Below, piece by piece: positions 4,293 to 57,032 of a stretch of 64,000 nucleotides of DNA. Where the stretch lies: positions 28,715,598 to 28,779,597 of the forward strand of contig OZ026605.1 of assembly GCA_964020085.1 (NCBI GenBank), written 5' to 3'. The notes under the pieces are model-generated. The model did no database searches. It was not told the DNA's origin and saw only the letters and a program-made list of their open reading frames with translations. A program made the translations under genes and the position numbers. Positions within the stretch are counted from its first letter, which is position 1, and every line of letters begins with the position of its first letter. The stretch comes from Micromussa lordhowensis (lineage: Eukaryota; Cnidaria; Anthozoa; Scleractinia; Lobophylliidae).

Positions 4293-6100
4293 ATGATCCA
4301 GTGGTATTCCAATTTTCCGGTTCCACGTTCTGCTATCAGGGTCATAGCATTCAATCATAGCATTCTTTGATGTGGAACAAGTCTGTTAAACCAGGTAGTT
4401 GTACGCAGACCATACAGCTTGTCATCCACAGACAAGAGTTTTGGAGTCACACAAGGGTCTATTTCAAACCTTGAAATAAAATGCCATTCATTTGTTCTTT
4501 CATCGAAAGCTTCACATCGCCAGCCTTTAGGCCCTTTCCCCAGGTCATTAACTCCACCAGCAATGTAAATCTTTCCGTGTGCAGCAGATCCGGCAGCAGA
4601 ACTCCTTGCTTTCTGCAGGTCAGCTACTTTGTCCCACTGGTTTTTACTGAGATCGTACCTTTCCACTTCAGCCAGATACGTATACACTGCACCATGCCAT
4701 TCTGCTCCGCCAATAAAGTAAATGAAATTCCCTTTGGCTACAATGCAAAAATCGTGCCTTAAATTCAAATGATCAAATGAGGATACAACTTCCCACGAGT
4801 TTGACTCGGGTTTGTACTTCGTAATGAGGGAAAGATGTGTTTCTTTGCTGCAGTGGGCCCACTGTGGTCTCGATTCTTCGTTTGGCTGAGTCAGTTCGTG
4901 ACATTCCTCACACGGGTCAGACATCAAAGCGTACATTTCATCACCACTTCCAAGAAATATCTGCTTCAAGTCTCTGTTGTCTTGGTATGGTAATGATATC
5001 CAGTTGTGAGTGTTTGGATCATAGCTTTCAATGCCATACCTGAATGCTTCTTCACTCCCCGCATGCCATGCTTGTGGTTGCTTAGTTGTTGCAATGTGCA
5101 CAGCGTAGATTTTACCATGACAGGGCACAAGATGGCTGTCATCCAAACAAATTCTCATCTCGCCCCACCTGTACCAGCAATCTTCACGAATTGAGTAACA
5201 CTTAATATCTTGACCTGTAAATGAACTACAGGCTACAATAACCGGTTCCTGAAGCGACTTTCTAGGCGTGACCGCAAGATTATCGAAGCGTCTAGACTCA
5301 ATCAAATATATGGCATCCGCGACAAGGTTCACACAGCTTTCATTGTCTTTGACGAGATCATTTGACACAACGTCACTGAGTATAAAGTCAAGCGAAGTAT
5401 AAACCAGTCGAACTTGACGAAATAACTCGGCGAAATATTTCTTTCGCGTGCTTTTGTCATGATCAACCCATGCTAGAATGATGTAAAAAATGTCCTTTTC
5501 GGCGGTAACATTTATTTCATCACTTGAAATAAACATTAAGAGTTGGTCCTTCGACATACTCAAAACCTCTTTCTGGTTGGATGAATATAAAGTGTTGAAA
5601 TTTGCAAGAATAAAGTTTTTGGCCTTGAAAAGAAGATCTCCGCATTGGTATCTTTGCAAAAAATAGTAGGTTGAAAGACAATTTGAAATGTTTAACTTCT
5701 CTGCTAAAAATCCTCCAGCGAGAGTTTTTAACTTGGGTAGAAACAAATAATCGGCCACAACTAGCAGGTCTCGGGCACTGTCTTCATTCCATATCTGAAC
5801 ATGACCTGTGTACATAAACTGCATTGCGTCTCCCATAACAGACCCGGAGAACATCTCTAGGCGAACAATTCTCTCGCTAGATTCCTTCATGTTACTGTTC
5901 AGCAGCTTTTCGAAGAAAGGACTTGCCTTTGAAAGAACTTGACTGTGAGCTTCTAATTCTTTGCCATCTTCAACCACCAAAATAAGGTCGCATGGTCGGT
6001 AGAGTTGAGCTTTTGGAACAAAAACTCCACTGACAATTTCTTTACTGGAAGCAGCATATTGTGAATTTCCAACTGACTCAAGTAAGGCTGCCATCTTCAT
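4293..6100 (-). CDS. BTB-BACK-Kelch protein (KLHL-like), frameshifted near its visible 3' end
   Basis: A 581-codon frame (6100 to 4355) encodes a KLHL-type protein. These usually act as substrate adaptors for cullin-3 ubiquitin ligases. The BTB domain is at about residues 35-105 (CDLILVVEDGKELEAHSQVL, then SPFFEKLL), BACK at about 110-215 (NCLSTYYFLQRYQC), and Kelch blades from about 290 on (IESYDPNTHNWISLP, FIYFIGGAEW, VERYDLSKNQWDKV, KIYIAGGVND). The start MKMAALLE has a second ATG two codons on. After TTTWFNRL the frame hits a stop at 4355-4357. The next frame, from about 4382, reads TCSTSKNAMIECYDPDSRTW, the expected continuation of a Kelch blade, and runs to a GTAAGT splice donor at 4292-4287. 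This implies a one-base indel near 4382-4390: either a true pseudogene lesion or an assembly error. A further 3' exon was not identified. A truncated second copy of the first third lies at 12541-12843. Confidence 0.85.
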
Positions 6101-6387
6101 GCCAAGATGATCTTTGCTTAGTCACAAGGCTCAGAGCTTTGAGATGTTGGTGTTTGTGGTACATTTATAGCAAAGTTAGGCGAGAGCGGAAGTTTTCTGA
6201 ATAATTACTTGAATGATAAGAGCAACAAATTGAAACTACTGCGAAAATTATTTATGTTGTGTTCTGAAAATTTTACTGAGTCATTGCAGAGTCCTGGGCA
6301 TTACGTCAAAAATATAAAGACCTTTATGTTTTCGCTGTTTTATTTTATTGCTACAGCAATATATGATCACATGCATTAGGCAGCGGC

Positions 6388-6415
6388 TGACGTCAGGTGA
6401 CGTCAGTTTACGTCA
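6388..6415. promoter_or_regulatory. Triple CRE-like cluster upstream of the Kelch gene
   Basis: Two perfect palindromic CREB/ATF sites (TGACGTCA) lie at 6388-6395 and 6398-6405, and a near-match (TTACGTCA) at 6408-6415. The centres are 10 bp apart, about one helical turn. The cluster sits about 290 bp upstream of the Kelch start codon, so a cAMP- or stress-responsive promoter is plausible. The same cluster is kept in copy 2. Confidence 0.55.
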
Positions 6416-6608
6416 AATACCTTTTGTACGAGGGCGAGCAAGACCACTAGAATCTATATTATGACTTTTATGTTTTATTATGCTGTTTATGTCTATAAGG
6501 GTGCTATGGCTATAATTAGAAAACAGCATATGTAATAAATTGACGATTACCAGACTTGTCAAAAAACTTTACTTAACAGTTATCAGTTACAAGATAAATT
6601 ATTGCAAC

Positions 6609-7010
6609 CGAATATATGAAATATCATATATTTGAACTGCGGAGAAAGATATGAAGATATAGATTATCATCACAGTTATATACACAACTTAAGTAGCTGT
6701 GAAAAAAAATTCAGGCCTGAACGGGATTCGAACCCATGACCTCTGCGATACCGGTGCAGTGCTCTACCAACTGAGAGCCAACTGGGAGCTGGTCACATTG
6801 TTAGTTCGTGATATACTCCGCAGTTCAAATATATGACATTTCATATATTCATTTGCATTCTTCACCATCTGCGAGTATATCACGAACTAACAATGTGACC
6901 ACAACTCCAACACTAGAGCAGTGCACCGGTATCGCAGAATCCCGTTCAGGCCTGAATTTTTTCTCAGGCTTTAATTTCACAGCTGCTTAAGTTGTGCATA
7001 TAACTGTCAC
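6609..7010. mobile_element. tRNA-derived SINE pair, head-to-head foldback, copy 1
   Basis: A minus-strand SINE (about 6609-6810) and a partial plus-strand one (about 6811-7010) meet head to head. Both carry the tRNA-like head (box B GGATTCGAACCC on the minus strand at 6724-6735; GCACCGGTATCGCAG in both) and the tail with AACTTAAG and ATATGAAATATCATAT. The minus copy lacks about 7 nt between the D arm and acceptor stem. The plus copy has lost part of its T arm. Confidence 0.65.
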
Positions 7011-10000
7011 GAAATTTTCTTCTTTGTCATATAGTTGTTTGCGTTTAGTTTAGGTTTTTGTTTCAGCGTGTTTTGTCTGGTAGGAATTGGGCATTACGTA
7101 ACTTTTGAAGCATTAAAGTAATAATATTCAAATAATCTTTAAGTGTATTGTGTAGTTTAGGTGTACGTATTAGAAATGATGTAGCTTTGTACAATTTTAA
7201 GTGTGTATTAAGTGTTCTTTGCAGTAAATTTCTTTGCAGCGTTTGTTTAAAGTGTTAATTGTAGCATAAATGTATAAATGTAAGTCGTACAGACAGATGT
7301 ACTGGGTTGTTGGGTGTAGAGACGAATGGAAGGGCATGTGGCCAAAGAAAGAACGAGAAGAATTCACTGCTAAGAGCCATTGGTAGGCGCAAGCCAAGTA
7401 ACTTGACGAAACTCATTTGTCAATGGTGGCGATAGAGAGGAGAAGTGCTACGCGCTGTTTACATGCCGTGTGGCGATTGAGAGTATTGTTGAAAAACCTC
7501 GTGCTGAGGAGAAAACGTCGACTGAAAGATAAAGGAAAGCACGTGAAGACGCGGAGCTAGGTTTGAACTAAAGAGAAAGAGGTTTGTGGTATCAGTTCAG
7601 GTTTTGTGGTATCGGTTTAGGTTTTGTGCTGTTGGTAAAGAAGAGTCAAGGAATGAAACGGAACTGAACAGTACTGCACCAAATAATTTGTAAATAGTTA
7701 GTTAATTCGATTTCGTGTGTAATTACTGTCTGGCTTTAAAATTACTCAAGTTAAAGTTAAGAATCGTATTGGCTTAGCAATTAGTTGTAATAATTTTCAA
7801 GCAAGTAGTTCTTATAGAATATTTAGAATTAGTTTACTTAGTGTTAACATTGTTAATATCGAGAGTTTTTTTTATAGTTAATAAACATTAGCTGTTGTAA
7901 TTCACGGTGGTGTGTTGCGAGTTTGTGGGAAGGGGTACGTGTAGTCAGTCATTGTTAGTTTCGGCGTTTTCATCGCCAAGGGAATTTTCGGGGATCGCGC
8001 CACAATAACTGCGATGATCAAGTATGTCTTCAGATAAATCATTGTAAGGATTGGCGCTTATGATTAATTACTAGGTGGTATTCGCACTTCTTTCTGCGAG
8101 TAGCGCGCAGAATATCTTCGCTTACTTTTTACGAGTAGCACTTTTAAACAAAGAAAGTTACACTAGAGAAATGCTTTTATAATGCAATTTACCAGTGACG
8201 TTACGATAAGTGATCTATCGTTTCACACATACATGTACGGTTCGATTTCTTACGGATCAATACTGCAAAAAGTCTGCGGCAGGCCAAATGCTTCATACAG
8301 CCTCAGCTTATCTCGGGCACTTCAAGCATGAAGCGACTAGAAATATTTCTACTCCTCCCTGGATGGGATGCTAGTCCATAGTAAGGTCTCCGGATCAAGC
8401 GTACGATCGCACAATACGTTTTACACCCTCTCTTGAAATGAATGTACAAATAGAAGCACTCTATCAGTAGTACAGCACCATTCCAAGGGTCTGGACCGAC
8501 GGTCAATCTCTTTCCCAGAGACCGCATTTCTTTTGGTTAGCCCAAAGAAATAGAGATCTGGGAGAAATCGGAAAGTGAGCTAGCATTAGTTACAGTGCAT
8601 GCTCAGAAATCGCTATTAAAGGAACATGAACGCGTGACCACAATGATACCGAGGAACCAGGATTTTCTGGTACCGGTTTGAATTTATTCCAGAGTGTCTA
8701 GCGTTCGGTCATCCCTCACCGAAAACGTGCGAGACTCCGGGAAATAAATTCAGAGTTTGCGGGGTTTATTTTCCGGAGCCTCGTGCTGAGGTCTATTGTT
8801 TTGGGCTGGATTTTGATATATCGAAGCTGGGCTATTATCAAAGTAGGCTTAATAATGCGAGGAAAATCTTTTTTCATCGATCTTTTGCTAGTTAATAAAG
8901 TTGGCGTGGCGGTATTCAAGAGGTTTTTTTGTCATTTGGGGACGGTTTATAAATGATAAGTAAAATGATGACTTGCATAAAGTGAAGTAAATGAAATTAA
9001 TTACTCAGAAAACAAGACACCATTTCACTTATCATTTATTTACATTTATTATTTCGACATATTGAGCCTTGCAGAATGCAGGACATGTGTCAGGCATAAG
9101 AACCTAGTTTACGACCTTGCTCGCCTTAGTCCCTCCATAGCTCAGTGGTTACAGCGTCCAACCGGTATTCTGTAAGGTCATGGGTTCGACTCCCGTTTTC
9201 TGAGTAATTCGGCTTGAGAACGTTTTTTCATTTATATTTTGTGTTGTTTGACGATCTCAGAGAAATTTGATGTTCTCGAGGGCTCGGAAGATATAATAAG
9301 CGGCTTGTACCATACAACGGGTCAAAGACGGAACATCGAGGTTTATAAAAGACAAAAATTTATTATAAAGTAACCTGAGAAAATTGAAAATTACCCCTAG
9401 TGTCTCCTGGTACTGAGTAGTACGATAAAACCTTGTAGTAATAATTTAATTTTAATTATTTCGTTTAGCTCTGATTTTGTTTATTCATACCGACATTCAA
9501 TCTGGCTGCCTTTCAAGGACATGGTCGGGTTTATATTTTGAAATTCATGATGGTGAGGGCAGTGTTTATTCGAGTGAAGTAGTGGGAGCTATTAATTCGA
9601 GCGTGCGGGCGCCTTAATCAAGAACGTATGTTAAAGATGATTTCCAGTCCGTACTGCGCAGTCTCACACCCTAATGTCCAAAGACATCGTCTTGTAATTT
9701 TACAGACGATATATGGACAAAAAAAACAATTCTCTACATTTAGTTATAAACTAGTACAAATTTCTCCCATCATGATTTTGGTAAATTCTGGTGCATTTTT
9801 AAGCATTAGTAGCCGGTTTTGCGAGCTCACCGAACTAATTTTTGTCATGATACCATACATTTCTTCTACTGGTTACCCCCCAAAAACGCAAGGGATTATG
9901 GGTCATGTGCAAGTAGCGAATAAATATTATCTCTACTCTGCATATCTGAGTAAAACACTAACACTAACTTTGGCACAGCGGATGTTGCGCTGTATATGAT

Positions 10001-10086
10001 ATATTATTATCGCAATGAAGTTTGGAAGAGATAAAAGTTCTAACTTCATACAGACATGTAATATCGTTTTTAGTTTACTTACGTTT
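7011..10086. other. Duplicated intergenic spacer, copy 1; no gene recognised
   Basis: This spacer is duplicated at about 14145-17690. It contains a partial SINE body near 8320-8385 (TTTCTACTCC...GGATGGGATGCTAGTCC), the foldback repeat near 8770-8840, and a tRNA-like repeat at 9131-9204. None of the open frames here is preserved in both copies in a way that suggests coding. Confidence 0.45.
9131..9204 (+). repeat. tRNA-like repeat head (A and B boxes), copy 1
   Basis: TAGCTCAGTGGTTA (A box) is followed by GGGTTCGACTCCC (B box) about 45 nt on, the layout of an internal RNA polymerase III promoter. The anticodon arm does not fold cleanly, so I call it a tRNA-derived repeat rather than a gene. 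A GTTTTCTGAGTAAT motif on its 3' side is inverted at about 9000-9013, making a foldback. The second copy is at 16132-16204. Confidence 0.5.
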
Positions 10087-10563
10087 TTAAAATAGTAACT
10101 TGTTTACCATCTTTGACACCATTGCTGATGATAACTCTCGACAAAGATTAGGTCGTGACTGCTCAATCTTGTCCCTGATCACGGACTCCGCGGTTTCTTT
10201 ACAGAGTGAGTTTGTTCCGCTGGACTCATATTGTTTTTGTCTCACAAAATATATGCCTTGTTTCAACATTTTCAGTATTTTTAATCAGAGTAATTTTGAG
10301 GTTGTAAATACATCAGGAGTAGTGATTCCTAAAGTGTTTGTGTGATTCTTATGTTCAGCTGGCAGGTGCTCTGTGGAGCTGTGAACATTGCTTTTATACC
10401 GCGGTTCAGATCGGACGTGTAGTCCTTCTGCTGTTCGGAAACCTTGAATATTCCCTTTACAGCCATCGATCGGAACGTAAGTATTACTGAAAACGTTCAA
10501 TTCTTTCCCTTTTAACAAAATGATATTCTCGTATTGGACACGTCCATGAACCTTGGCGTTCAA
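10087..10563 (-). pseudogene. Unrecognised ORF with one in-frame TGA, copy 1
   Basis: On the minus strand, 92 codons (10563 to 10288) are followed by a TGA at 10287-10285. About 60 more codons then continue in the same frame to a TAA at 10087. The second half is polar and helical in look (CKETAESVIRDKIEQSRPNL, then SAMVSKMVNKLLF). I do not recognise the family. Copy 2 (17889-18167) keeps the first part with few amino-acid changes but loses the second part to small deletions. It may be an old coding exon or simply duplicated noncoding DNA. Confidence 0.25.
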
Positions 10564-10810
10564 ATTTTCTACCTTTTGTTAATAATATATAAATTTTCAA
10601 AAAAGTTGGTGTCGCTATGTTGTAGCCGAGCTGAAGTAAATTCTTCCACTTATTCATCACGATTAAACGGCTATGACAGCCAAAATGCTATAGAAGGGCT
10701 ACAGGAATGTTTTTAACAGGGATATACACTGGACTAGTGTAATTTTCTACCAAGTGCATCTGTATGGTTATTGTTCTGTATTTCGTCAACATTTTCTCAG
10801 CCTCTGCAAA

Positions 10811-11165
10811 TGAATATATGAAATATCATATATTTGAACTGCGGAGGAAGATATGAAGACACAGTTGATCATCGCAGTTATATACACAACTTACGCAGTT
10901 GTAAAATTAAAGCCTGAAAAAAATTCAGGCCTGAACGGGATTCGAACCCACGACCTCTGCGATACCGGTGCAGTGCTCTACCAACTGAGAGCCAGCTGGG
11001 AGCTGGTCACATTGTTAGTTCGTGATGTACCCCTAGATGGTGAAGAATGAAAATGGATATATGAAATATGATATATTTGAACTGCGGAGGAAGATATGAA
11101 GACACAGTTGATCATAACAGTTATATACATAACTTAAGCAGCTGTGAAATTAAAGCCTGAAAATT
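10811..11165 (-). mobile_element. tRNA-derived SINE, tandem and partial, upstream of GPCR 1
   Basis: The repeat begins with the ATATGAAATATCATATATTTG motif at 10814 and carries the tRNA-like head on the minus strand (box B GGATTCGAACCC at 10939-10950, D arm CTACCAACTGAG). A second tail-only segment follows at 11054-11165. This is the same family as 6609, 13353, 18413 and 62204. Confidence 0.65.
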
Positions 11166-11590
11166 CAGCATCACTTTTTGGAAGGTTTATGACGTAAGAA
11201 AAAAAGCGTGGCTCGCTTCGAGAATACTGGCATGTAATGTAATATAAACAAGTCACATTTTCAATTTTCGACTCTATAAGAGTATCAAAGGCATCTCATT
11301 GTATCTACGTTGCATTGTACCGTACTTAAAAACGTTTAATAACCTAACAAGAATGATAATATTAATAGTAACGTAATAATACACTTGCAAAAATCCGACT
11401 GAATAACTAAGATCGAGCGCTGCATTCATTGGACGCAAGAGGAAATTATAGCGAAGATCCGACTTTTGAACGAAGAAACACGAGGTACCCTATAATAACG
11501 ACATTTAACAGCCATTCGTATTCTAAAATATTCGAACTTATCCCGGAGCCTGATTAATTCACTTTATTTTTATTCCCAGGCGAAACAAAG

Positions 11591-12506
11591 ATGAGCGATA
11601 CACTGTACTTCGGCCTGATGCTGACTTACTCTTTGCTAATCGCAGTGAACCTTGTTGGTAACACTATGGTCATTCTTGTTGTTGTACTAAACAAATCCAT
11701 GCAAAGGCCAATCAACTATCTGCTCGTGAACCTAGCGGCTTCGGACATCACTGTCGCGGTTTTCGCCAGCATTGAATTTCTCGTCGAGCCAATCCTGTCT
11801 CGTGTTGAGCCTTTGACAGCATCTTTCCTCTGCAAGTTCGTAACTGGCGGCACTCTGGGCTGGGTAGGTGCAACATGTTCCATTTTCAATTTAGTTGGTA
11901 TTAGCATCGAGCGGTACTACGTCATAGTTGTTCCACTTCGACATCACGGCAAGCTTACTTATGAAAAGCTCAGGATCTTCATATTCGTCAGTTGGACGTT
12001 AGCTCTTGTTTGGGCCAGTCCTGGTTTCTTCATAAACACTTACATAACAGAATCCCAAATGTGTGGACATCAGTGGCCGAAGGCGATCTACGCAAAGATC
12101 TACACCGTCGGATGGTCGCTTGTGGCCGGCATAATACCCATAGGAATCATGGGATTATTTTACACCCGAATCATTTATCGTCTTTGGTTCACAAAAGACA
12201 ACACCACCGAGGTTACCCAGAAGGCACTGCTCCGCTACAGGCGGCGCTTAACGAAAATGATGATTGCTGTGACAATAATCTATGTCCTGTGTTGGGGTCC
12301 TGAACTCATGATCTACTTTCTGGGTTTTCTTGGCGTGTTCACGTTAAAGGCCATTCATCACGGAGTAGCCTTTGCTCTGGTTGTGTTTAATTCTTGTGTT
12401 AATCCTATCGTTTATAGCTTTCAAAGTGAACAGTTTAGGACCAATCTATGCGCCATAATTCGTCGCCGAAGGCGCGGTGGCCGAGCCATTTACCCAACGA
12501 GCGCGA

Positions 12507-12539
<33 letters not shown>

Positions 12540-12685
12540 AAACATGGCCGGTGTACATAAACTGCATTGCGTCTCCCATAACAGACTCGGAGAACATCTC
12601 TAGGCGAACAATTCTCTCGCTAGATTCCTTCATGTTACTGTTCAGCAGCTTTTCGAAGAAAGGACTTGCCTTTGAAAGAACTTGA
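11591..12685 (+). CDS. Class A GPCR, copy 1, with chimeric C-terminus
   Basis: A single-exon rhodopsin-family receptor of 364 codons. A splice acceptor (TTTTTATTCCCAG, ending 11579) lies 11 nt before the ATG, so a 5' UTR intron is likely. Features: GN in TM1 (23-24), LAASD in TM2 (D52), C81 before TM3, ERY at 107-109 in place of DRY, a second extracellular-loop Cys in QMCGHQW, CWGP in TM6, NPIVY in TM7, and a basic helix-8 region ending RRRRRGGRAIYPT. There is almost no N-terminal extension. The native tail is replaced after residue 303 by about 61 residues read first from foldback-element filler (12499-12542) and then from antisense Kelch BTB sequence. Ligand unknown; similar cnidarian receptors are often labelled neuropeptide-like. 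The core differs from copy 2 at very few residues (for example KMMIAV versus KMAIAV, RTNL versus RKNL). Confidence 0.88.
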
Positions 12686-12843
12686 CTGTGAGCTTCGAAT
12701 TCTTTGCCATCTTCAACCACCAAAATAAGGTCGCATGGTCGGTAGAGTTGAGCTTTTGGAACAAAAACTCCACTGACAATTTCTTTACTGGAAGCAGCAT
12801 GTTGTGAATTTCCAACTGACTCAAGTAAGGCTGCCATCTTCAT
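12490..12843 (-). pseudogene. Truncated Kelch gene copy (BTB N-terminus) fused to antisense GPCR sequence
   Basis: The first 100 or so codons match the Kelch protein at 6100-5798 almost residue for residue (HAASS for YAASS, KEFE for KELE, FSES for FSGS). They end after MQFMYTGH, before the end of BTB/BACK. The frame then runs through the filler and 9 bp of antisense GPCR sequence to a stop at 12490. It lacks BACK and Kelch blades and so cannot be a normal adaptor. A free BTB fragment could in principle dimerise with the parent. Its upstream region, including the CRE cluster, is intact, so it may still be transcribed toward GPCR copy 1. Confidence 0.8.
12499..12542 (+). other. Filler DNA at the duplication junction, matching the foldback element at 22.2 kb
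   Basis: AGCGCGAGTGGAATAATTGT and the following TTTATTAAAAACGCCCCCAAAAA match 22240-22283 exactly over about 43 bp. The left side shares CCAAC with the GPCR tail. The right side joins Kelch sequence at about 5798. The copied stretch includes bases outside the palindrome of the foldback element. Confidence 0.85.
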
Positions 12844-13130
12844 GCCAAGATGATCTTTGCTTAGTCACAAGGCTCAGAGCTTTGAGATGTTGGTGTTTGT
12901 GGTACATTTATAGCAAAGTTGGGCGAGAGCGGAAGTTTTCTGAATAATTACTTGAATGATAAGAGCAACAAATTGAAACTACTGCGAAAATTATTTATGT
13001 TGTGTTCTGAAAATTTTACTGAGTCATTGCAAAGTCCTGGGCATTACGTCAAAAATATAAAGACCTTTATGTTTTCGCTGTTTTATTTTATTGCTACAGC
13101 AATATATGATCACATGCATTAGGCAGCGGC

Positions 13131-13158
13131 TGACGTCAGGTGACGTCAGTTTACGTCA
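13131..13158. promoter_or_regulatory. Triple CRE-like cluster, copy 2
   Basis: TGACGTCA at 13131-13138 and 13141-13148, and TTACGTCA at 13151-13158, with unchanged 10 bp spacing. It lies upstream of the truncated Kelch copy. Confidence 0.5.
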
Positions 13159-13352
13159 AATACCTTTTGTACGAGGGCGAGCAATACCACTAGAATCTAT
13201 ATTATGACTTTTATGTTTTATTATGCTGTTTATGTCTATAAGGGTGCTATGGCTATAATTAGAAAACAGCATATGTAATAAATTGACTATTACCAGACTT
13301 GTCAAAAAACTTTACTTAACAGTTATTAATTACAAGATTAATTATTGCAAAC

Positions 13353-13727
13353 GAATATATGAAATATCATATATTTGAACTGCGAAGAAAGATATGAAGA
13401 CATAGTTAATCATCGCAGTTATATACTGTGAAAAAATTCAGGCCTGAACGGGATTCGAACCCATGACCTCTGCGATACCGGTGCAGTGCTCTACCAACTG
13501 AGCTATCAAGCCAACTGGGAGCTGGTCACATTGTTAGTTCGTGATATACTCCGCAGTTCAAATATATGATATTTCATATATTCATTTGCATTCTTCGCCA
13601 TCTGCGAGTATATCACGAACTAACAATGTGACCACAACTCCAACACTAGAGCAGTGCACCGGTATCGCAGAGGTCATGGGCTCGAATCCCGTTCAGACCT
13701 GAATTTTTTTCAGGCTTTTTAAAATTT
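13353..13727. mobile_element. tRNA-derived SINE pair, head-to-head foldback, copy 2, with intact tRNA-like head
   Basis: The minus-strand head at 13441-13512 folds as a full tRNA cloverleaf. It has a 7 bp acceptor stem (GGCTTGA with TCAGGCC, one G-T pair), D arm GCTC/GAGC, a 5 bp anticodon stem with one mismatch, and T arm ATGGG/CCCGT. The loop would present GGT (threonine), but position 33 is C rather than U, and the SINE tail follows. It is a tRNA-Thr-like SINE head, not a gene I would call functional. A plus-strand partner follows at about 13570-13727. Confidence 0.7.
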
Positions 13728-14144
13728 TTAAGGCGGGGGTAAACAGGAATAGGCGTGAAATTTGAAGTGACATAAAAAAGGAAATTGTTAGGATTAAGAT
13801 GGGTTGGAAACACTACCAGACAGTTGACCCCCGCAAAAGAGAGCCCCAGGTTGCTAGGGGACTGTTTGGAATCCGCCTACTAATTCTTCACTTCAAATTT
13901 CAATTTTCCAAATCCATCAAATCTTCAACATTTCATATTTTCCTCAATTTAACCTATCCTTTGAGAAAAAAAATCTCTTTCCCAAAATGCCCAAAAATTA
14001 CCCAAAAAGTTACACAAAACCGCCAAACAGTGGTTAATGAGATAAGCAGAGAGATTTAGTGTTGCTTGAAACGTGACCGAGATATTGGCAGAAAGGCCGT
14101 GTTAAGCGACCTCAAAACAGCCTTCACGTTTACCCCCTCCTTAA
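13728..14144. mobile_element. Foldback DNA element present only in copy 2
   Basis: The left end TTTTTAAGGCGGGGGTAAAC and right end GTTTACCCCCTCCTTAA are inverted relative to each other. A similar end, TTTAAGGAGGGGGTAAACC, occurs at 58670. The TTAA at the ends suggests a piggyBac-like target site. Copy 1 has no counterpart (compare about 6978). No transposase frame is seen inside. Confidence 0.5.
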
Positions 14145-15852
14145 GTTGTGCATATAACTGTCACGAAATTTTCTTTTTTGTCATATAGTTGTTTGCGTTT
14201 AGTTTAGGTTTTTGTTTCAGTGTGTTTCGTCTGGTAGGAATTGGGCATTACGTAACTTTTGTAGCATTAAAGTAATAATATTCAAATAAGTGTATTGTGT
14301 AGTTTAGGTGTACGTATTAGAAATAATGTAGCTTTGTACAATTAAGTGTGTATTAAGGTGTTCTTTGCAGTAAGTTTCTTTGCAGCGTTTGTAGCATAAA
14401 TGCATAAATGTAAGTCGTACAGATGTAGTGGGTTGTTGGGTGCAGCAGTTTTGTTGGAGAAGGGAAGTGAGCAAGAAAAAAGAGAGACGAATTTGAAGGG
14501 CCTGTGGCCTAAGAGAGAAAGAGAAGAATTCACTGCCAAGAGCCATTGGTAGGCGCCAGCCAAGTAACTTGACGAAACTCATTTGCCAGTGGTGGCTATA
14601 GAGCGGAGACGTGCTACGTGCTGTTTATGGTCGTTTATGTGCTGTGTGGCGATTGAGAGTAGTGTTGAAAAACCTCGTGCTGAGGAGAAAACGTCGACTG
14701 AAAGATAAAGGAAAGCACGTGAAGACGCGGAGCTAGGTTTGAACCAAAGAGAAAGAGGTTCAGGTTCAGTTTTATGGTATCGGTTTAGGTTTTGTGCTGT
14801 TGGTTAAGAACAGTCAAGGAATGAAAAGGAACTGAACAGTAGTGTTCCATATAATTTGTAAAAAGTTACGGTTAATTCGATTTCGTGTGTAATTACTGTC
14901 TAGCTTTAAAATTATTCAAATTAAAGTTAGGAATCGTTTTAGTTTAGCAATTAGTTGTAATAATTTTCAAGCAAATGGTTTTTATAGAATATTTAGAATT
15001 AGTTTACTTAGTGTTAACATTGTTAATATCGAGAGTCTTTTTCATACTTAATAAACATTAGCTGTTGTAATTCATAGTGGTGTGTAGCGAGATTGTGGCA
15101 AGGGGTACGTATATTCAGTCATTGTTAGTTTCGGCGTTATTGTTAGTTTTTATTTCTCCGTTTTCATCGCCAAGGGAATTTTCGGGGATCGCGCCACAAT
15201 AGCTGCGCTTATGATTTAACTGACTAGGTGGTATTCTCACTGTTTTCTGCGAGTAGCGCGCAGAATATCTTCGCTTACTTATTACGAGCAGCATATTTTG
15301 AACGAAGAAACTAGAGAAGTGCTCTTATAATGCAATTGACCAGTGACGTTACGATCAGTAATCTATCGTATCACACAAACTTGTACGGTTCGATTTCTTA
15401 CGGATCAATATTGCAAAAAGTCTGCGGCAGACCAAATGCTTCATACAGCCTCAGCTTATCTAGGGTACTGCCAGCATGAAGCGGCTAGAAATACTTCTAC
15501 TCCTCCGTGGATGGGATGCTAGTCCTTAACGATCGCACAATACGTTTTACACCCTCTCTTGAAATGAATGTACAAATAGAAACACCCTATCAGTAGTACA
15601 GCACAATTCCAAGGGTATGGACCGACGGTCAATCTCTTTCCCAGAGACCGCATTTCTTTTGGTTAGCCCAAAAAATAGAGATCTAGGAGAAATCGGAAAG
15701 TGAGCTAGCATTAGTTACAGTGCATGCTCAGAAATCGCTATTGTCAAGTTTTGGGCTGGATTTTGATATATCGAAGCTGGGCTATTATCAAAGTAGGCTT
15801 AATAATGCGAGGAAAATCTTTTTTTATCGATCTTTTGCTAGTTTATAAAGTT

Positions 15853-15890
15853 GGTCATAGTTAGTAGAGTAGAGTCTCCTCTACTAACTA
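15853..15890. repeat. Small perfect hairpin inserted in copy 2
   Basis: TCATAGTTAGTAGAG and CTCTACTAACTATGA are inverted repeats around a short loop. Copy 1 reads straight through this point (AATAAAGTTGGCG near 8895-8907), so it is an insertion in copy 2 or a clean loss from copy 1. Confidence 0.6.
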
Positions 15891-16131
15891 TGAGTTGGCG
15901 TAGCGGGGTATTCAAGAGGTTTTTTTGTCATTTGGGGAGGGTTTATAAATGATAAGTGAAATGATGACTTGCATAAAGTGAAGTAAATGAAATTAATTAC
16001 TCAGAAAACAAGACACCATTTCACTTATCATTTATTTACATTTATTATTTCGACATATTGAGCCTTGCAGAATGCAGGACATGTGTCAGGCATAAGAACC
16101 TAGTTTACGACCTTGCTCGCCATGAGTCCCT

Positions 16132-16204
16132 CCGTAGCTCAGTGGTTACAGCGTCCAACCGGTATTCTGTAAGGTCATGGGTTCGACTCCCGTTTTCTGA
16201 GTAA
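16132..16204 (+). repeat. tRNA-like repeat head (A and B boxes), copy 2
   Basis: Same A box (TAGCTCAGTGGTTA) and B box (GGGTTCGACTCCC) as at 9131-9204, with one visible change (CCGTAG for CCATAG). Confidence 0.5.
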
Positions 16205-16830
16205 TTCGGCTTGAGAACGCTTTTTCATTTATATTTAGTTGTGTTGTTTGACGATCTCAGAGAAATTTGATGTTTTCGAGGGCTCGGAAGATATAATAAG
16301 CGGCTTGTACCATACAATGGGTCAAAGACGGAACATCGAGGTTTATAAAAGACAAAAATTTATTATAAAGTAACGTGAGAAAATTGAAAATTACCACTAG
16401 TGTCTCCTGGTACTGAGTAGTACGATAAAACCTTGTAGTAATAATTGAATTTTAATTATTTCATTTGGCTCTGTTTTTGTTTATTCATACCGACATTCAA
16501 TCTGGCTGCCTTTCAAGGACATGGTCGGGTTTATATTTTGAAATTCATGATGGTGAGGGCAGTGTTTATTCGAGTGAAGTAGTGTGAGCTATTAATTCGA
16601 GCGCTTGGGCCCCTTAATCCAGTCCGTACTGCGCAGTCTCACATCCTAATGTTTATGAACATTATAAGTTCCCACTCGATGGAATGCGAATCGATGTTAT
16701 TCGTTTCGAATCACATACTTTATCTTTGAGGCCTTTCAAATTCCAACAGCTTCATTGATTTTTACAGCTGCGAAGTTGTTTCATCAAGTGGTATGAGAAA
16801 GAACGCAGCATAAAGCTTCGACCGCTTCCC

Positions 16831-17425
16831 ATCCATAATGGCGGTTGTTTTGAAACTTTGAATTTACTTCATGTAAGTAGTCGCGAAGTAGCGACATCAT
16901 GCATAAAACAAAAACATAAACAACTCTCGAGAGTGCGCAGTACGGAGTGGAAATCATCTTTACGTAGCAGAAACATAATTATGGTTCTGTATGTAAATCT
17001 GGACTTGGGAAGTGCGGGTATTAAAGGTTGGGATTTTACAGTAGCGACAGTTCCATTTACCAGGCACTTGACGGTGTGAGGCAGGCCTGAGCTGGAGGTA
17101 TTTGCCTTTGACTGAGAAGAGCCTGGGTCAAATCAGTTCAGATGCGGTTACTTTTTCTCTCCACTCTGTCATGACCTTTGCAATATTACGTCGAGTTTGA
17201 GTTTCTACCCCTGGTATGTTCTTATTACATACATTTGAATCAAGTGTTTTCTCTACTCTTAGGAAGTTGCTTCGCATCCATAATGGCGGTTGTTTTGAAA
17301 CTTTGAATTTACTTCATATAAGTAGTTGCGAAATGATTACATTTTTTTGATGTCTTACATGAAACAAAACAAAAAACGCAGACAAACTCACGAGAGTGCG
17401 CAGTACGAACTGGAAATCATCTTTA
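16831..17425. repeat. Dispersed repeat flanked by direct repeats
   Basis: A roughly 280 bp core (16985-17265: GTGCGGGTATTAAAGG, then ACTGAGAAGAGCCTGGGTCA, then TGACCTTTGCAATATTA) recurs at 32300-32570 in LCMT1 intron 1. It is flanked by direct repeats of about 130 bp (16831-16964 and 17275-17425) that begin ATCCATAATGGCGGTTG and end GGAAATCATCTTTA. No coding potential is recognised. Confidence 0.55.
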
Positions 17426-17888
17426 AATGTTTTACAAGCCGATCCAAACAAGCACACAAGTACACTCAGCAACAGAACTTAAGTCTTCTCACTGAAAGGG
17501 AAAAAAAGAAAGAAATTGAAGGATTGAAATTTGGCTGATATATATTATCTCTACTCTGCATATCTGAGTAAAACACTAACACGAACTTCTTTTTTTTTCT
17601 TTAATAATATTGGCACAGCGGATGTTTGGAAGAGATAAAAGTTCTAACTTCATACAGACATGTAATATCGTTTTTAGTTTACCTACGTTTTTAAAATAGT
17701 AACTTGTTTACCATCTTTGACACCCGTTGCTGATGATAACTCTCGACAAAGATTAGGTCGTGACTGCTCAATCTTGTCCCTGATCACGGACTCCGCGGTT
17801 TCTTTACAGAGTGAGTTTGTTCCGCTGGACTATATTGTTTTTGTCTCATAAAATATATGCCTTGTTTCAACATTTTCAGTGTTTTTAA

Positions 17889-18167
17889 TCAGAGTAATTT
17901 TGAGGTTGTAAATACATCAGGAGTAGTGATTCTTAAAGTGTTTGTGTGATTCTTATGTTCAGCTGGCAGGTGCTCTTTGGAGCTGTGAACATTGCTTTTA
18001 TACCGCGGTTCAGATCGGACGTGTAGTCCTTCTGCTGTTCGGAAACCTTGAATATTCCCTTTACAGCCATCGATCGGAACGTAAGTATTACTGAAAACGT
18101 TCAATTCTTTCCCTTTTAACAAAATGATATTCTCGTATTGGACACGTCCATGAACCTTGGCGTTCAA
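17889..18167 (-). pseudogene. Unrecognised ORF, copy 2 of 10285-10563
   Basis: A 92-codon minus-strand frame nearly identical to copy 1 (TEHL to KEHL, TLGI to TLRI). The downstream continuation seen in copy 1 is shifted here by small deletions near 17830. Family unknown. Confidence 0.25.
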
Positions 18168-18412
18168 ATTTTCTACCTTTTGTTAATAATATATAAATTT
18201 TCAAAAAAGTTGGTGTCGCTATGTTGTAGCCGAGCTGAAGTAAATTCTTCCACTTATTCATCACGATTAAACGGCTATGACAGACGAAATGCTATAGAAG
18301 GGCTACAGGAATGTTTTTAACAGGGATATACACTGGACTAGTGTAATTTTCTACCAAGTGCATTTGTATGGTTTTGTTCTGTATTTCGTCAACATTTTCT
18401 CAGCCTCTGCAA

Positions 18413-18775
18413 ATGAATATATGAAATATCATATATTTGAACTGCGGAGGAAGATATGAAGACACAGTTGGTCATCGCAGTTATATACACAACTTGCGCA
18501 GTTGTGAAATTAAAGCCTGAAAAAAATTCAGGCCTAAACGGGATTCGAACCCATGACCTCTGCGATTCCGGTGTAGTGCTCTACCAACTGAGAGCCAACT
18601 GGGAGCTGGTCACATTGTTAGTTCGTGATGTACCCCTAGATGGTGAAGAATGCAAATGAATATATAAAATATCATATATTTGAACTGCGGAGGAAGATAT
18701 GAAGGCACAGTTGATCATCACAGTTATATACACAACTTAAGCAGCTGTGAAATAAAAGCCTGAAAATTCAGCATC
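18413..18775 (-). mobile_element. tRNA-derived SINE, tandem and partial, upstream of GPCR 2
   Basis: Counterpart of 10811-11165: a full minus-strand SINE head with the same D-arm deletion, then a tail-only unit at about 18660-18775. Confidence 0.65.
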
Positions 18776-19193
18776 ACTTTTTGGAAGGTTTATGACGTAA
18801 GAAAAAAAGCGTGGCTCGCTCCGAGAATACTGGCATGTAATGTAATATAAACAAGTCACATTTTCAATTTTCGACTCTATAAGAGTATCAAAGGCATCTC
18901 ATTGTATCTACGTTGCATTGTACCGTACTTAAAAACGTTTAATAACCTAACAAGAATGATAATATTAATAGTAACGTAATAATACACTTGCAAAAATCCG
19001 ACTGAATAACTAAGATCGAGCGCTGCATTCATTGGACGCAAGAGGAAATTATAGCGAAGATCCGACTTTTGAACGAAGAAACACGAGGTACCCTATAATA
19101 ACGACATTTAACAGCCATTCGTATTCTAAAATATTCGAACTTATCCCGGAGCCTGATTAATTCACTTTATTTTTATTCCCAGGCGAAACAAAG

Positions 19194-20144
19194 ATGAGCG
19201 ATACACTGTACTTCGGCCTGATGCTGACTTACTCTTTGCTAATCGCAGTGAACCTTGTTGGTAACACTATGGTCATTCTTGTTGTTGTACTAAACAAATC
19301 CATGCAAAGGCCAATCAACTATCTGCTCGTGAACCTAGCGGCTTCGGACATCACTGTCGCGGTTTTCGCCAGCATTGAATTTCTCGTCGAGCCAATCCTG
19401 TCTCGTGTTGAGCCTTTGACAGCATCTTTCCTCTGCAAGTTCGTAACTGGCGGCACTCTGGGCTGGGTAGGTGCAACATGTTCCATTTTCAATTTAGTTG
19501 GTATTAGCATCGAGCGGTACTACGTCATAGTTGTTCCACTTCGACATCACGGCAAGCTTACTTATGAAAAGCTCAGGATCTTCATATTCGTCAGTTGGAC
19601 GTTAGCTCTTGTTTGGGCCAGTCCTGGTTTCTTCATAAACACTTACATAACAGAATCCCAAATGTGTGGACATCAGTGGCCGAAGGCGATCTACGCAAAG
19701 ATCTACACCGTCGGATGGTCGCTTGTGGCCGGCATAATACCCATAGGAATCATGGGATTATTTTACACCCGAATCATTTATCGTCTTTGGTTCACAAAAG
19801 ACAACACCACCGAGGTTACCCAGAAGGCACTGCTCCGCTACAGGCGGCGCTTAACGAAAATGGCGATTGCTGTGACAATAATCTATGTCCTGTGTTGGGG
19901 TCCTGAACTCATGATCTACTTTCTGGGTTTTCTTGGCGTGTTCACGTTAAAGGCCATTCATCACGGAGTGGCCTTTGCTCTGGTTGTGTTTAATTCTTGT
20001 GTTAATCCTATCGTTTACAGCTTTCAAAGTGAACAGTTTAGGAAGAATCTATGCGCCATAATTCGTCGCCGAAGGCGCGGTGGCCGAGCCATTTACCCAA
20101 CCAAGATTGTGAAAGTCAGGCAAAGAATTACCAGCGCAGTATAA
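19194..20144 (+). CDS. Class A GPCR, copy 2, with native C-terminus
   Basis: A complete single-exon receptor of 316 residues. It has seven hydrophobic segments, GN in TM1, LAASD in TM2, C81, ERY at 107-109 (instead of DRY), a Pro in TM5, CWGP in TM6, NPIVYSFQ in TM7 and a basic cytoplasmic tail ending QRITSAV. The N-terminus before TM1 is under ten residues with no glycosylation site. The residue seven after C81 (Ballesteros 3.32) is Thr, so it lacks the Asp of aminergic receptors. A splice acceptor ending at 19182 sits just before the ATG. It is the tail of the original locus and the best functional representative of the pair. Ligand unknown; a peptide-type cnidarian orphan is my inference. 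Confidence 0.92.
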   Translation: MSDTLYFGLMLTYSLLIAVNLVGNTMVILVVVLNKSMQRPINYLLVNLAASDITVAVFASIEFLVEPILSRVEPLTASFLCKFVTGGTLGWVGATCSIFNLVGISIERYYVIVVPLRHHGKLTYEKLRIFIFVSWTLALVWASPGFFINTYITESQMCGHQWPKAIYAKIYTVGWSLVAGIIPIGIMGLFYTRIIYRLWFTKDNTTEVTQKALLRYRRRLTKMAIAVTIIYVLCWGPELMIYFLGFLGVFTLKAIHHGVAFALVVFNSCVNPIVYSFQSEQFRKNLCAIIRRRRRGGRAIYPTKIVKVRQRITSAV

Positions 20145-22140
20145 TCAAGATATCATAGTAAATGGCTTGAACCCAGGAGTATCAGTAGTTCATATAGTGT
20201 GATCGTCCGGGTGAGGGTAGTTCTGAGAAGAACTGTTGTTGGTGACTGATGCCGTTTCGACAACCTGAGCGGAAGCCATCTTCAGAGTCAAGTGAATAGT
20301 GTTTGTCAGTCGATGATGTTATAAGTTTGGTCCGTTGAAAGTGATTGGTCACTTTAGCCATGATGGCATTGGCTGAAAGACTCATGTAAAGTTTGTCATC
20401 AGTCATTGGTCAGTTTCGATCCGTCTTTTATTAGTCAAATTGGTTGGTTTGAGGTCCGTGTACAGTCAGTCAAATTAAGTCGGTCTGTTAGAAGTCCGTT
20501 TGCCGGTTTCGTTTGCGTCGTGGATAAGTCGTTTGTAAATCGCCGGCAGTTGTTGACATCTGTTAAGAGGGGTTTGTTCTAAGTTAGTGTACCAGCTTTC
20601 AAGAGTCAGTCGTTGAAAATAGTTCGTTGTGTAGGTTAAGCATTGAGCAGTGTCCAAGTCAATGTTGTGGTTTGTCAGTTGATGATGTACAGCAATGTGA
20701 TTGTTGACATCACCATTTCTCGTGGCTCATTTATGTTCAGTCAGTCTCGGCGAACAATCATAATTAGAAACAGTTCTTTGAAGTCAGTTTCAGTTAGAAT
20801 TCTACCAAAAGAATTAGATTATTCGCTCTCGATTTCTATGAAGTGAAGTTGATTCCGCCTTGGGCCTCATATCAACTATAGCCACATCATCTAGTTGTTA
20901 AACAGCACTGTTTCAATCAACTGCTTAGCCTGCATTCCGCTTTGTTTTCCTGAAGTTTGCGCCGGACAATGTGAATCAGACGCCGAATGAACTGATGAAC
21001 TACTATGAATGACGTGTCTTAAGGCATGAACACGGGAAGAACTCTCCGCTAATAAGGACACTTAACTAAGATTAGTAGAACTCTACTAGTATACCGCTAA
21101 TGCAAACGCTAACACTGCAATCTGATTGCTGAGTAGTCATACACTATCGGCAGCCATTGGTGTGCAGTGGTTAGAGGTCGTCTACGAAACGCCGAGGTTT
21201 TTTTTAATTTTTCCAAAGTTTTGGAGGAACTCTTTGATGCAAATGGATAATTAAATTCCTGAGAAGACTAAAAGAAGGATATTTACGGTTTCTTTACATT
21301 GAAAAACCTTGAAATTATTGAAAAAATGATGCGCACGAGTGTTTAACTTTAATACACAACTTGTACCCACTGACCTCCAAAATTTCAATGTAATAAGACA
21401 AAATTAGACAGGGAAGGCGAGCTAGAAGCCGATCACATTGACAGCTAACGAGCACGGCTAAAAACATGCAGCCCAAGATTTCTTCCTTACGCTTTCAATT
21501 TCTACGGTTAATGACATTTACAGTGTCAGGCATTTTTTTAGTAAAATAAAACAAAAAAACTGAAAAAAGGAGAAGTTTTTACTAGTGGAGACTCCATAAG
21601 TGCTCAGAATGAGAGGGTAGAATTAGTGGGGGTTTGAGGTGACAGATAATATGGGTCCTTCCTTTGCCTGAAAAAGGGGGAAGGCGGAATGAAGGAGGGT
21701 CCTTTAATGCTCCAGTAAGAGGGAAAGGTGGGGCGACAGCACTTGCTTCGCAGATTTCAGAGTTGACGTATAAGCTATATTTAAAGCTACTTCAATTTCT
21801 GTTTACTAATAAATTTGGTGAGTCGGCCTAATGGTTAGCCCTTAGGACTCCGCAGTGTGTCAGCGGTCACTGTCAAGATTTTTAAATTTATCACTAAGCG
21901 TAGCACAAATGAGAGTTGCTTTCGACACTCAAGTGATAAGCGACTACTGACTTGTATTCAGTTTTCACGACAATGGGACAAAAAGAACAAATTCTGAGTC
22001 TCCGATATATATGGGAAACGATTTCAGACCTTCCGTATAACAGGACGATGCTTCTCTTTCCCAAATCTCTTGTGACCCACAAGACACCTGGGAACAAGAT
22101 TAGCCGATGCTCTAACCACTAAGCTAGCGGCGTTTCAAGC
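20145..22140. other. Intergenic; MITE-like and tRNA-like repeat fragments
   Basis: From 20170 to 20880 I see no gene. About 21075-21430 is a repeat with TAGTAGAACTCTACTAGTATA-type ends and TGTGCAGTGG, related to 49014-49320. About 21820-21870 and 22050-22130 carry tRNA-like A-box sequences facing each other (CCTAATGGTTAGC; on the minus strand CTTAGTGGTTAGAGC), probably SINE heads. Confidence 0.45.
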
Positions 22141-22146
22141 TATTTA

Positions 22147-22147
22147 A

Positions 22148-22221
<74 letters not shown>

Positions 22222-22222
22222 A

Positions 22223-22280
<58 letters not shown>

Positions 22281-22284
22281 AAAG
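22147..22284. mobile_element. Foldback MITE (ACAATTATTCCACTCGCGC ends), donor-like match to junction filler
   Basis: The palindrome at 22147-22260 has near-perfect arms. ACAATTATTCCACTCGCGCT on the left, followed by TGTTGGATATGAGATGAT, mirrors ATCATCTCATATCCAACAAG on the right, followed by CGCGAGTGGAATAATTGT. The centre is GCCAACGAGGCGC / GCGCCGAGTTGGC. Bases 22261-22284 (TTTATTAAAAACGCCCCC and following A's) continue the segment found at 12499-12542. Confidence 0.75.
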
Positions 22285-22289
22285 TAAGG

Positions 22290-25261
22290 AACTAGACTAC
22301 TATGAAAACAAAAAGGCCCAAAAAATCACGCATACGCTCGCCATTTTTGTAGATCATGGTATAATGGCTCATATACCATGATGGCTAAGCCAATGAAAAG
22401 TCTCGAATTGCATTATCCAATGACCCAGTTTTTAAAATGTAGGTTATTTACTAGATTCAGCCAACTAAGTAAGTTTGTTTTTAGAAACAATCACAGGCTT
22501 GCGGCGATTAGGTGCAGAAGGCCTGTTTCCAAGTATTTGCAGTGTTAAGGTCAAGCTTCTGAAGCTTTCTAAACAGTAACATCCTCAATATCTTCTTCAT
22601 ATATTCGAAGAACTCAGCGAGTCTGTTTGTTGTTTTGCAGGCACCAATCCAAATTCAAAGACAGGGTTGAGCAATCAAATCAAATGAAATTATTGACACA
22701 CCTGACACTATCACATTGGTACCCTCGGCCTATTCTGAATAAATTAACGCCTATTTGCATAAGGTATCTAAAAATGCTTGATTCCCGCATGCGATTGAGC
22801 TCCTTAGATCCGAATTACGTTGCACTAAGAATTTTCCCTTTGGCATAAACAACGACAGCTGAACAATTGCTCACATATTTTAACCACTGACGCAAGTTTC
22901 GGTTTACGTTCCTCGTGATCAGAAAAACTCTCATGCCTTTGCTGTTTTTCACTAGGGTGGGCAACAAATCTTACACAAGTGATTCTGTAAGTACATATGC
23001 TTTTTCTTCTTTTATTTCATCGCTATTTTAGTTTCTGCAATCTTAGATTTTTCGAGGAGTAGACAAAACGCGCTCTAAACTTCTCTCTCACTGGACTGTG
23101 TCATGCATCGAAGCTCGCAAGAAACGATTTAATTTAAGTTTACTTAAATGTGTTCAATTTTAAAAGGAATATGTACCAAAGAAAATGTTCAATTGTCTTT
23201 AAAAAAAAAAGACCAAAGCACTATTCGTGTTAAGGTTTGGCGTCAATACTAAGTACGCTGTTATTTACAGTTGAGCAAGACATTACTGAAAGCTGGAAAA
23301 AATATGGTTTGTTTCACTGCAACAAAGGAAACGTAATAATTGTTAAACAAATAATATAATTGCGCTTTATTTCTGCTGCAAATTTTAATTTATTTTACTA
23401 CGGCTTAGTTAATTTCATGGAACCATTAAAGCTTGCCGCAATTCGCATTTTGACGAAACAAAGGTTTCTATCAAAACTATACTTTAAATTCTGCCATCTC
23501 ACAAGTATAGATCTTGTTCTGACCGCCACTGAACATTGTCATATATTGTTTCAGCTTATTGCCTTGAATTTACCCTGTTTAGTAAGCAAACCCCCTTTAG
23601 TAAGTCAATAGAGAAACTAGATTTTAATTAATCCACAATACGAGGATGTTTCGAATACTCTTCTAGATTTTCACAACTTCACCAATTCAAAAACACGATT
23701 TCGATTAAAATTATCAAATTTCTCTAATAACCTAAAATCAACTTAAAATAAATAAAATAAATTGATCCGTATTGAAACAAAATAGTGAAAGATCGAACTG
23801 TCATTTCAATGCATGCTACCAGAAAAAAAAACATATCATTTAGTATAAGCCCATCTTTTTTACATGTAATTTAAAAATTATTTGCTGAACAATTGTGTCG
23901 GCTTAGGTGACACCTATCTGTGAAATGTATGCAGAAACCAAACTGCTTTTTCAACATTTTTGAAAATAAAATCTAGTTTTGTGTTGTGGTTTAGTGCCTT
24001 ACAGTTAGCTAAAAGCCGACCCAAACGTTTTGGTGTTATAGATTTTCAGGAAATTAGAAGAAAAACAATTGCGCCATCAAGTTGTTTTGGTTAATGTCGA
24101 ATTTCTACCGCCAACTTGGATCCGCGACGCAATTGCTTTGCCAAATAGAATATTCGACAATGCGTTCTTTGTTCTTTTCAGAATAATCTTCCGCATGTTT
24201 TCGTAATTAATTAAAATCAATCTTGACAAGGCGACTCTGAACAAGTTGAAACAAAATTATTCCACTCATTTATCGAAAGGAAAATCGCTAATTCTGTTCC
24301 AAAAGAAGACTTAGTATTTATTAGTGCAGAAATAATTTTTGACGCTTTAAAATAAATTGATCAAATCCTTTGTAAAATTGAAGTAAATTTCGGTATATTT
24401 CAACTTTCCTTTTCCTGTGTACCAATCATTAGCTGTCGTATGACTTCTGTCTTCCTTAAAACTTCGGAAAATCAGGTTTGCGTTCATTACATCACGGGCA
24501 TTTAAGGTGTCCCTTGATCTTATTCCTTGGCCATAACAGAGTTCCAGGTCAGTAGATTTTTCAATCCAAGCTACATGTTGAGAACGGCAATGTTTGTCTG
24601 CCTGTATTTTTAATCGATGTCCTGTTGATGTAAACGATGTTTATGGTATGATCGAAACAGCTTTGCGCTTTTAATGCAGTTTGTTGTTCTGCATCAGTAA
24701 CGTGGAATAATTCAGCTTTCTACAACTTCAAACTTCTTTTTAAGTATAGGAAGGTTTATATCTTGAAGACGACTATCGAAGTTTTAAAACACAGAAGACA
24801 TATTTACATCGATGGAGACCTGAAAATGATGATCTAGTTTTGTTTAAAGTTTCTTTATTAATAGTGAACTAAAGCTACAAAAGGAGGCAGCGTTGTCGTA
24901 AGTTCCGCATGAATAAAACAAGTTGGGATCGAAGACCAGTTTTTAGAATTAATTGCAGTTTACTCTTCTTTCAACAGCTTACTCGACATCTTAATGATGG
25001 TGCTTTAGGCTCATTTTTTGTATGAATGAAGGTACTTAATCATAATTTGGTTCTATGAGGACGTTTACTTGAGAACGGTTGCTTAAGTGAGTGCTTAAAA
25101 ATCTTAAAAATAAGGTAACTAAATAGTTTTCTTAGCTTTTGAGCAACTATACTTTATTATAATAGCCATGATAATATCGAAATCATTTTTCTCTTGCCAT
25201 TTCGGCACAAACTTATTAAAATAATTTTCGTAAATGCAATGCGGCAAAATGTAAATGCAAT
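22290..25261. other. Intergenic, AT-rich, no gene recognised
   Basis: No domain-bearing frame. Several small open frames (22627-22848, 23360-23611) have no recognisable product and no splice-site context. Confidence 0.4.
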
Positions 25262-27050: not shown

Positions 27051-27132
27051 ATTATCTTGACAGTAAGTAGTATAGTAACAATATGTTTTTATTTTGTTTT
27101 CACAAAGGAGCTACTGAAACTTAGAAAGAACC

Positions 27133-52804: not shown

Positions 52805-52811
52805 GCACTAA

Positions 52812-57020: not shown

Positions 57021-57032
57021 AGTCTGCAATAA

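Follow-up and report, generated by a model that had tools for sequence, protein, structure and literature searches.

The term 'dual promoter' gene presumably denotes an arrangement in which two 5′ ends point toward one another. Where tandem duplications cut across gene boundaries in Drosophila, 'dual promoter' genes, chimeric genes and the recruitment of sequence have been described (PMC4503668, PMC5460883). New exons have been reported to arise where a rearrangement joins the 5′ end of a gene to untranscribed DNA (PMC6776367), and slightly under one third of the predicted genes in two coral genomes were counted as tandem duplicates in a study that reports such duplication as pervasive among corals (PMC10236652).

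The locus described here lies in a window of 64,000 nt, by which we mean the whole stretch of DNA that was analyzed, from Micromussa lordhowensis (contig OZ026605.1 of assembly GCA_964020085.1, positions 28,715,598-28,779,597 of the forward strand). As far as the cited accounts describe them, the breakpoint chimeras of Drosophila yakuba and Drosophila simulans share with this locus duplication ends inside genes, inherited 5′ ends and intact parents (PMC4503668, PMC5460883); they differ from it in that here the 5′ ends face each other, each frame reads the antisense of the other and a repeat fragment is present at the seam. An inherited start codon and a novel C-terminal peptide gained in one step are also features of the new exons, in the part of the report that we draw on (PMC6776367), whereas here the exon is made of antisense coding DNA and filler, and the tail reaches its full length only with a base that is different in the intact BTB gene. 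The tandem duplication of adjacent genes recalls the coral gene clusters as outlined in PMC10236652, except that here the genes at the seam are only partial copies. Among the publications listed, judged by title and the opening of the abstract, none describes a comparable tail-to-tail antisense pair, which is not to claim that none is in print. We consider it highly probable that the locus marks where the two copies of a tandem duplication meet, with a filler derived from a repeat and, most likely, no selected function.

Duplicated unit and parent genes

Self-BLAST and alignment uncovered one unit in two direct, adjacent and colinear copies, at 5798..12498 and 12541..20101, with a unit length of 6.7-7.6 kb. 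Copy 1 holds the N-terminal part of a BTB gene, an intergenic region and a G protein-coupled receptor (GPCR) gene up to codon 302. On its left, the unit breaks off within a minus-strand BTB-BACK-Kelch gene, and on its right within a plus-strand class A GPCR gene. These two parents are divergently transcribed, and their inner 5′ halves confront each other tail to tail at the seam. The intact BTB-BACK-Kelch parent is of the KLHL type and occupies 4355..6100 (-) as a single open frame (6121-4355, 588 aa from stop to stop), with Pfam matches to BTB (positions 10-109 of 110), BACK (1-99 of 103) and Kelch motifs. The intact GPCR parent, of 316 aa, occupies 19194..20144 (+), within an open frame at 19161-20144 that has its ATG at 19194; it matches the whole of Pfam 7tm_1 (1-260 of 260, 147.6 bits), and the solved structures nearest to it are neuropeptide FF, somatostatin and galanin receptors. 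Both breakpoints are intragenic with complete parents outside, the arrangement of a tandem-duplication chimera. Because the seam is the junction of a 6.7-7.6 kb duplication, its structure is not a product of chance, and both of the "reciprocal" chimeras are accounted for by a single tandem duplication, with or without a subsequent small deletion.

According to the initial annotation, both N-terminal portions keep their own upstream regions. This holds, as the 5′ parts and the shared intergenic region are present in both copies of the unit, with indels in the middle. Since this intergenic region was copied, the promoters of both truncated genes would have been retained. The same annotation spoke of a receptor isoform, but the native receptor survives intact, and the chimera exists in addition to it as a gene copy of its own.

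The possibility of a larger original unit with homologous flanks was ruled out, as the sequences to the left of 5798 and to the right of 20101 share only two short opposite-strand matches, of 119 and 50 bp. What similarity the right flank has to the unit stems from dispersed repeats, from the filler repeat and from a third receptor, the last with 65.8% identity over 360 bp. The third receptor is a class A GPCR frame at 27121-28116 (+), with a complete 7tm_1 match (1-260 of 260, 153 bits) and ~66% DNA identity to the duplicated receptor over the 360 bp. Elsewhere in the window, two related open frames without a Pfam match were found at 52212-52811 and 59433-59915 (+), with 76.6% identity over 572 aligned bp, and a tandem repeat with a 123-bp unit (2.6 copies, 90% matches) lies at 57028-57352.

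Filler and joints

The two copies are separated by a 42-bp filler at 12499..12540 (+), identified by repeat alignment and pattern search as an internal fragment of a dispersed repeat of ~300 bp. When the 43-base pattern 12499-12541 was searched with up to 3 mismatches, it was found at two places in the window, at itself and at 22240-22282 (1 mismatch, 42 of 43 bases identical), and never in 100 shuffles. The second place lies on the same strand, begins 2.1 kb past the native GPCR breakpoint and forms part of a full copy of the repeat at 22141..22435 (+), which is 96.3% identical to the family majority over 295 bp and is the likely donor. The repeat contains an imperfect hairpin, and in an alignment of 15 copies from 14 loci its conserved sequence continues beyond the filler piece on both sides. 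Both of these sides are absent at the seam, which argues against transposition, and a transposed intact element was rejected because the seam holds only an internal piece of the repeat. Outside the window, the filler has at least 30 matches of 38-55 bases at 90-98% identity, 27 of them of at least 50 bases at 95-98%; this count is a lower bound, the window's own second copy being missing from these matches. The local copy at 22240-22282 is no better a match to the filler than many copies elsewhere, and since the filler belongs to a repeat family, its donor cannot be proved.

A side-by-side reading of the joints uncovered microhomology at both of them, with CCAAC (5 bp, 12494..12498, +) shared by the GPCR and the repeat and AA (2 bp, 12541..12542, +) shared by the repeat and the BTB gene. 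The base at 12499 is G, unlike either parent (C in the GPCR, A in the donor). The seam thus combines microhomology, intact outer genes, direct copies and intragenic breakpoints. Breakpoint filler can arise by microhomology-mediated template switching or end joining. The seam resembles templated or captured filler in that both joints are microhomologous and the filler matches nearby DNA; it differs from clear cases of templated filler in that the donor is ambiguous, the filler coming from a repeat family.

The ends of the tandem duplication fell inside the BTB-Kelch gene (-) and the GPCR gene (+). We infer that the filler stems from the repeat situated downstream of the native receptor, 2.1 kb away; it may have been copied by template switching during the duplication. 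Alternatively, the duplication may have run as far as the repeat, with a later 2.1-kb deletion in the first copy joining the GPCR to the repeat. In this two-step variant of the same explanation, which we give somewhat less than an even chance, 5798-22284 (16.5 kb) would have been duplicated and 2.14 kb of the first copy then deleted at CCAAC. The 5-bp microhomology fits such a deletion, as does the right flank, where the GPCR and the repeat follow each other in the same order and on the same strand as at the seam. It does, however, need two events instead of one, and no second copy of the stretch 20102-22231 was found inside the unit.

In the same window, tRNA-like matches (Rfam RF00005) occur at 13440-13512 (-) and 62213-62270 (+), with related copies at ~6.6, 10.8, 11.0, 18.4 and 18.7 kb. 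They are embedded in a dispersed repeat of which the window contains several copies, and which is possibly a tRNA-derived SINE, judging from these matches.

Frames across the seam

The frames of the receptor and the BTB gene overlap by 196 bp at the seam, around the foreign filler. The initial annotation had described a receptor frame that runs for 61 new residues through filler and antisense BTB sequence to 12685, an opposite BTB frame that crosses the filler into antisense GPCR sequence and stops at 12490, and stop codons taken by each gene from the gene on the other strand; the open frames bear out all of this. The chimeric receptor, of 364 aa, occupies 11591..12685 (+) in an open frame at 11558-12685, with its ATG at 11591 and its stop codon, TGA at 12683-12685, in BTB-derived DNA. 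The truncated BTB frame (12864-12490, -) has its first ATG at 12843, giving 117 aa at 12490..12843 (-), and its stop codon, TAA at 12492-12490, lies in GPCR-derived DNA.

The truncated BTB copy continues past ...MYTGHV for 16 new residues. Its match to the BTB profile covers positions 10-77 of 110, and Pfam gives no BACK or Kelch, so that it lacks the architecture of a BTB-BACK-Kelch protein. The "BTB-only transcript" of the initial annotation is at odds with this, as the BTB domain itself is cut. Because the cut falls in the middle of the domain, and solved BTB proteins match the truncated copy only to about residue 98-102 of 115, a folded product appears unlikely. As a complete BTB domain cannot be made, the copy is probably dead, a pseudogene.

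The chimeric receptor has a complete 7TM domain (7tm_1 1-260 of 260, 148 bits) that retains all seven helices, and alignment with its relatives places ERY at residues 107-109 and NPIVY at 271-275, matching the class A motifs E/DRY and NPxxY. Past ...RAIYPT, 61 residues stand in place of the native 13 (KIVKVRQRITSAV). The native tail was thus lost, as had been claimed, but the loss amounts to just 13 residues. In a 21-sequence alignment, the break coincides with the end of conservation among relatives, after RAIYP. The 13 closest relatives aligned (P0002-P0014) end at most 10 residues past this point with variable endings, and some remoter relatives have longer tails that are unlike the new one. 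Given that the tails of relatives are short and variable, the loss of the native 13 residues was probably tolerated. The native end ...TSAV is presumably a PDZ-like motif; the loss of such an end was considered and dropped, as the ends of the relatives differ.

A structural model of the chimeric receptor, of modest quality (mean pLDDT 61.5, 21 sequences), has nine helices through residue 294. Its blocks have pLDDT values of 51-83, with one block at 44, and the new tail is at ~30; a helix modeled at 333-360 is likewise at pLDDT ~30 and is given no weight. In this model, the receptor would keep its 7TM domain and a helix at the position of helix 8, and the 61-residue tail is predicted to be disordered. 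If transcribed and polyadenylated, the chimeric receptor could, on this model, reach the membrane with a disordered tail.

The full length of the tail depends on a TGG codon at 12545..12547 (+), since sequence comparison finds TGA at the corresponding position of the intact BTB copy (5802-5804). With the base of the intact BTB gene, the new tail would end at 15 residues. The chimera differs at 12547 and 12550 from 5804 and 5807 of the intact gene. Neither change alters the encoded BTB residue, and both sit no more than 10 bases from the joint; they may be repair errors, later changes or old alleles. As an observation in its own right, these are two substitutions close to the BTB joint, compared with ~1% in the remainder of the first 750 bases. 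The matching Gly codon is legible in four of six BTB paralogues (GGT, GGT, GGA and GGC), which do not polarize the ancestral base, and a stop loss from TGA to TGG in the chimera is a possibility. The remainder of the tail frame is open in the intact BTB gene too, for 44 codons in the same phase. When the codons of the BTB N-terminus were shuffled 5,000 times, 20% of the shuffles had an antisense frame of at least 45 codons in the most open phase, and 2% and 1% had one in the other two phases. The openness of the new tail is unremarkable. From the sequence, it seems an incidental consequence of the antisense frame of the BTB gene combined with one base difference.

Poly(A)-signal-like hexamers, identified by pattern only, lie inside the filler at 12520..12528, with AATAAA on the minus strand (12525-12520) and ATTAAA on the plus strand (12523-12528). 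Both precede the two stop codons and, if used, might yield transcripts that lack a stop codon. Further along the receptor strand, AATAAA next occurs, again as a pattern match, at 13277. These hexamers bear on the idea that transcripts of the seam silence the other intact gene through duplexes or small RNAs. In its favor, 319 of 324 BTB bases and 902 of 908 GPCR bases are identical to those of the intact genes, including uninterrupted identity over 109 and 669 bases, and antisense transcripts of pseudogenes are a described class, as far as the source outlines it (PMC2984423). However, the hexamers on both strands could end transcripts before much antisense is made, and we regard such silencing as far-fetched.

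Divergence of the copies and status of the chimeric receptor

Divergence between the two copies of the unit is patchy, with 1-2% at the ends and 5-10% in parts of the middle, where large indels occur; in windows at ~6963 and 9687-9914, insertions make the alignment unreliable. The unit alignment contains a tract of 1041 bp at 11219..12259 that is identical to 18822-19862. It starts ~370 bp upstream of the receptor ATG, and adjoining windows are ~2-4% divergent. The chance of such an identical run at a given place is 3 in 100,000 at 1% divergence and 5 in 1,000 at 0.5%, and recent gene conversion over the tract is likely on this pattern. With patchy divergence and probable gene conversion, the divergence does not date the duplication, and the description of the chimera as "newborn" is not sustained.

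We also considered whether the two copies could be two haplotypes placed head to tail by the assembly. There are just two copies, they come from one assembly, and patchy divergence with indels, from 1-2% at the ends to 10% in the aligned middle, is within the range that alleles might show. However, no shared long repeat lies at the join; it contains instead 42 bp of a third sequence, with microhomology at either end, and an identical tract of 1041 bp amid windows of ~2-4% divergence also speaks against misassembly. A whole-genome DNA search, in which 40 of 882 first-look candidates were scored, returned three places at 99% identity or more, all of them in the window (the seam itself, the second GPCR and the intact BTB gene), and among the candidates scored no further copy of this kind was found on another contig. 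The other 42 of the 45 matches were 12 stretches of BTB or GPCR paralogues at 70-79% and 30 short matches to the filler repeat. An assembly artefact is quite improbable on this evidence.

Protein searches followed the chimeras as far as the junction. The chimeric GPCR matched 141 proteins at E ≤ 0.001; among the 120 listed, the top 15 reach no further than the junction, with a coverage of at most 84%, and the highest coverage is 93% (P0040, 49% identity), a protein whose end is unlike the new tail in the alignment. The closest of the matches listed have 74-90% identity, and the named relatives among them are from the stony corals Desmophyllum, Acropora, Oculina, Stylophora and Pocillopora, with one planthopper at 28%. 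For the BTB chimera, 19 of 20 protein matches cover at most 86%, to the junction, and P0137 (49% identity) covers 92%. These matches are cluster representatives, and a chimera inside the cluster of P0001 (2 members) would stay hidden among them. With the new tail as query (residues 300-364), 9 candidates were returned, none of them at E ≤ 0.001.

The chimera could still be a functional new receptor, transcribed from the duplicated promoter, with a 61-residue tail that alters trafficking or coupling. The complete 7TM domain and the modeled helix after TM7 are consistent with this, as is the identity to the intact copy over the 1041 bp around the ATG and core. The predicted disorder of the tail and the failure of the tail search argue against it, and the poly(A)-like hexamer that precedes the stop on the receptor strand could truncate the message. 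The two receptor copies differ in 4 of 302 codons, two of them silent and two replacements. Compared with relatives, the intact receptor has two derived residues (A224 and K284) and the chimera one (M224). We saw no sign of selection on the chimeric receptor, a comparison to which four differing codons lend little power.

The open frame itself was weighed by simulation. At low divergence no selection is needed, since an unselected frame stays open in 68-89% of cases at 0.25% substitutions per site per branch and in 45-82% at 0.5%, the lower figures being those with indels. At 2.5-5% per branch, the case in which the 5-10% divergence of the middle is the true age, it stays open in 12-36% without indels and in 0-2% with them, so that an open frame would hardly be expected unless constraint or conversion had acted. 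As conversion may have set the divergence clock back, this second simulation is hard to apply. An intact chimeric frame with one derived replacement against two would also fit constraint. Taken with the points on both sides given above, a functional new receptor is unlikely but deserves to be kept in mind, as the receptor half might work were it expressed, and the absence of a selected function for the seam products is most likely.

One further model combines conversion with the new tail. Conversion from the intact neighbor would hold the 7TM core of a self-refreshing chimeric receptor, while the tail, outside the homology, would evolve freely, its length having perhaps risen from 15 to 61 residues when TGA became TGG. 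We give this model only a slim chance.

The tandem-duplication seam remains our preferred reading, and breakpoints, filler, likely donor and the coding outcome of both strands can all be read from one assembly. The locus illustrates how, from one duplication, a receptor can acquire a new C-terminal tail and two genes can each acquire a reciprocal antisense partner. As it stands, it is an instructive instance of a known process; should the chimeric receptor prove to be expressed, it would offer, in a non-model animal, a tractable case in which antisense coding DNA has supplied a tail.
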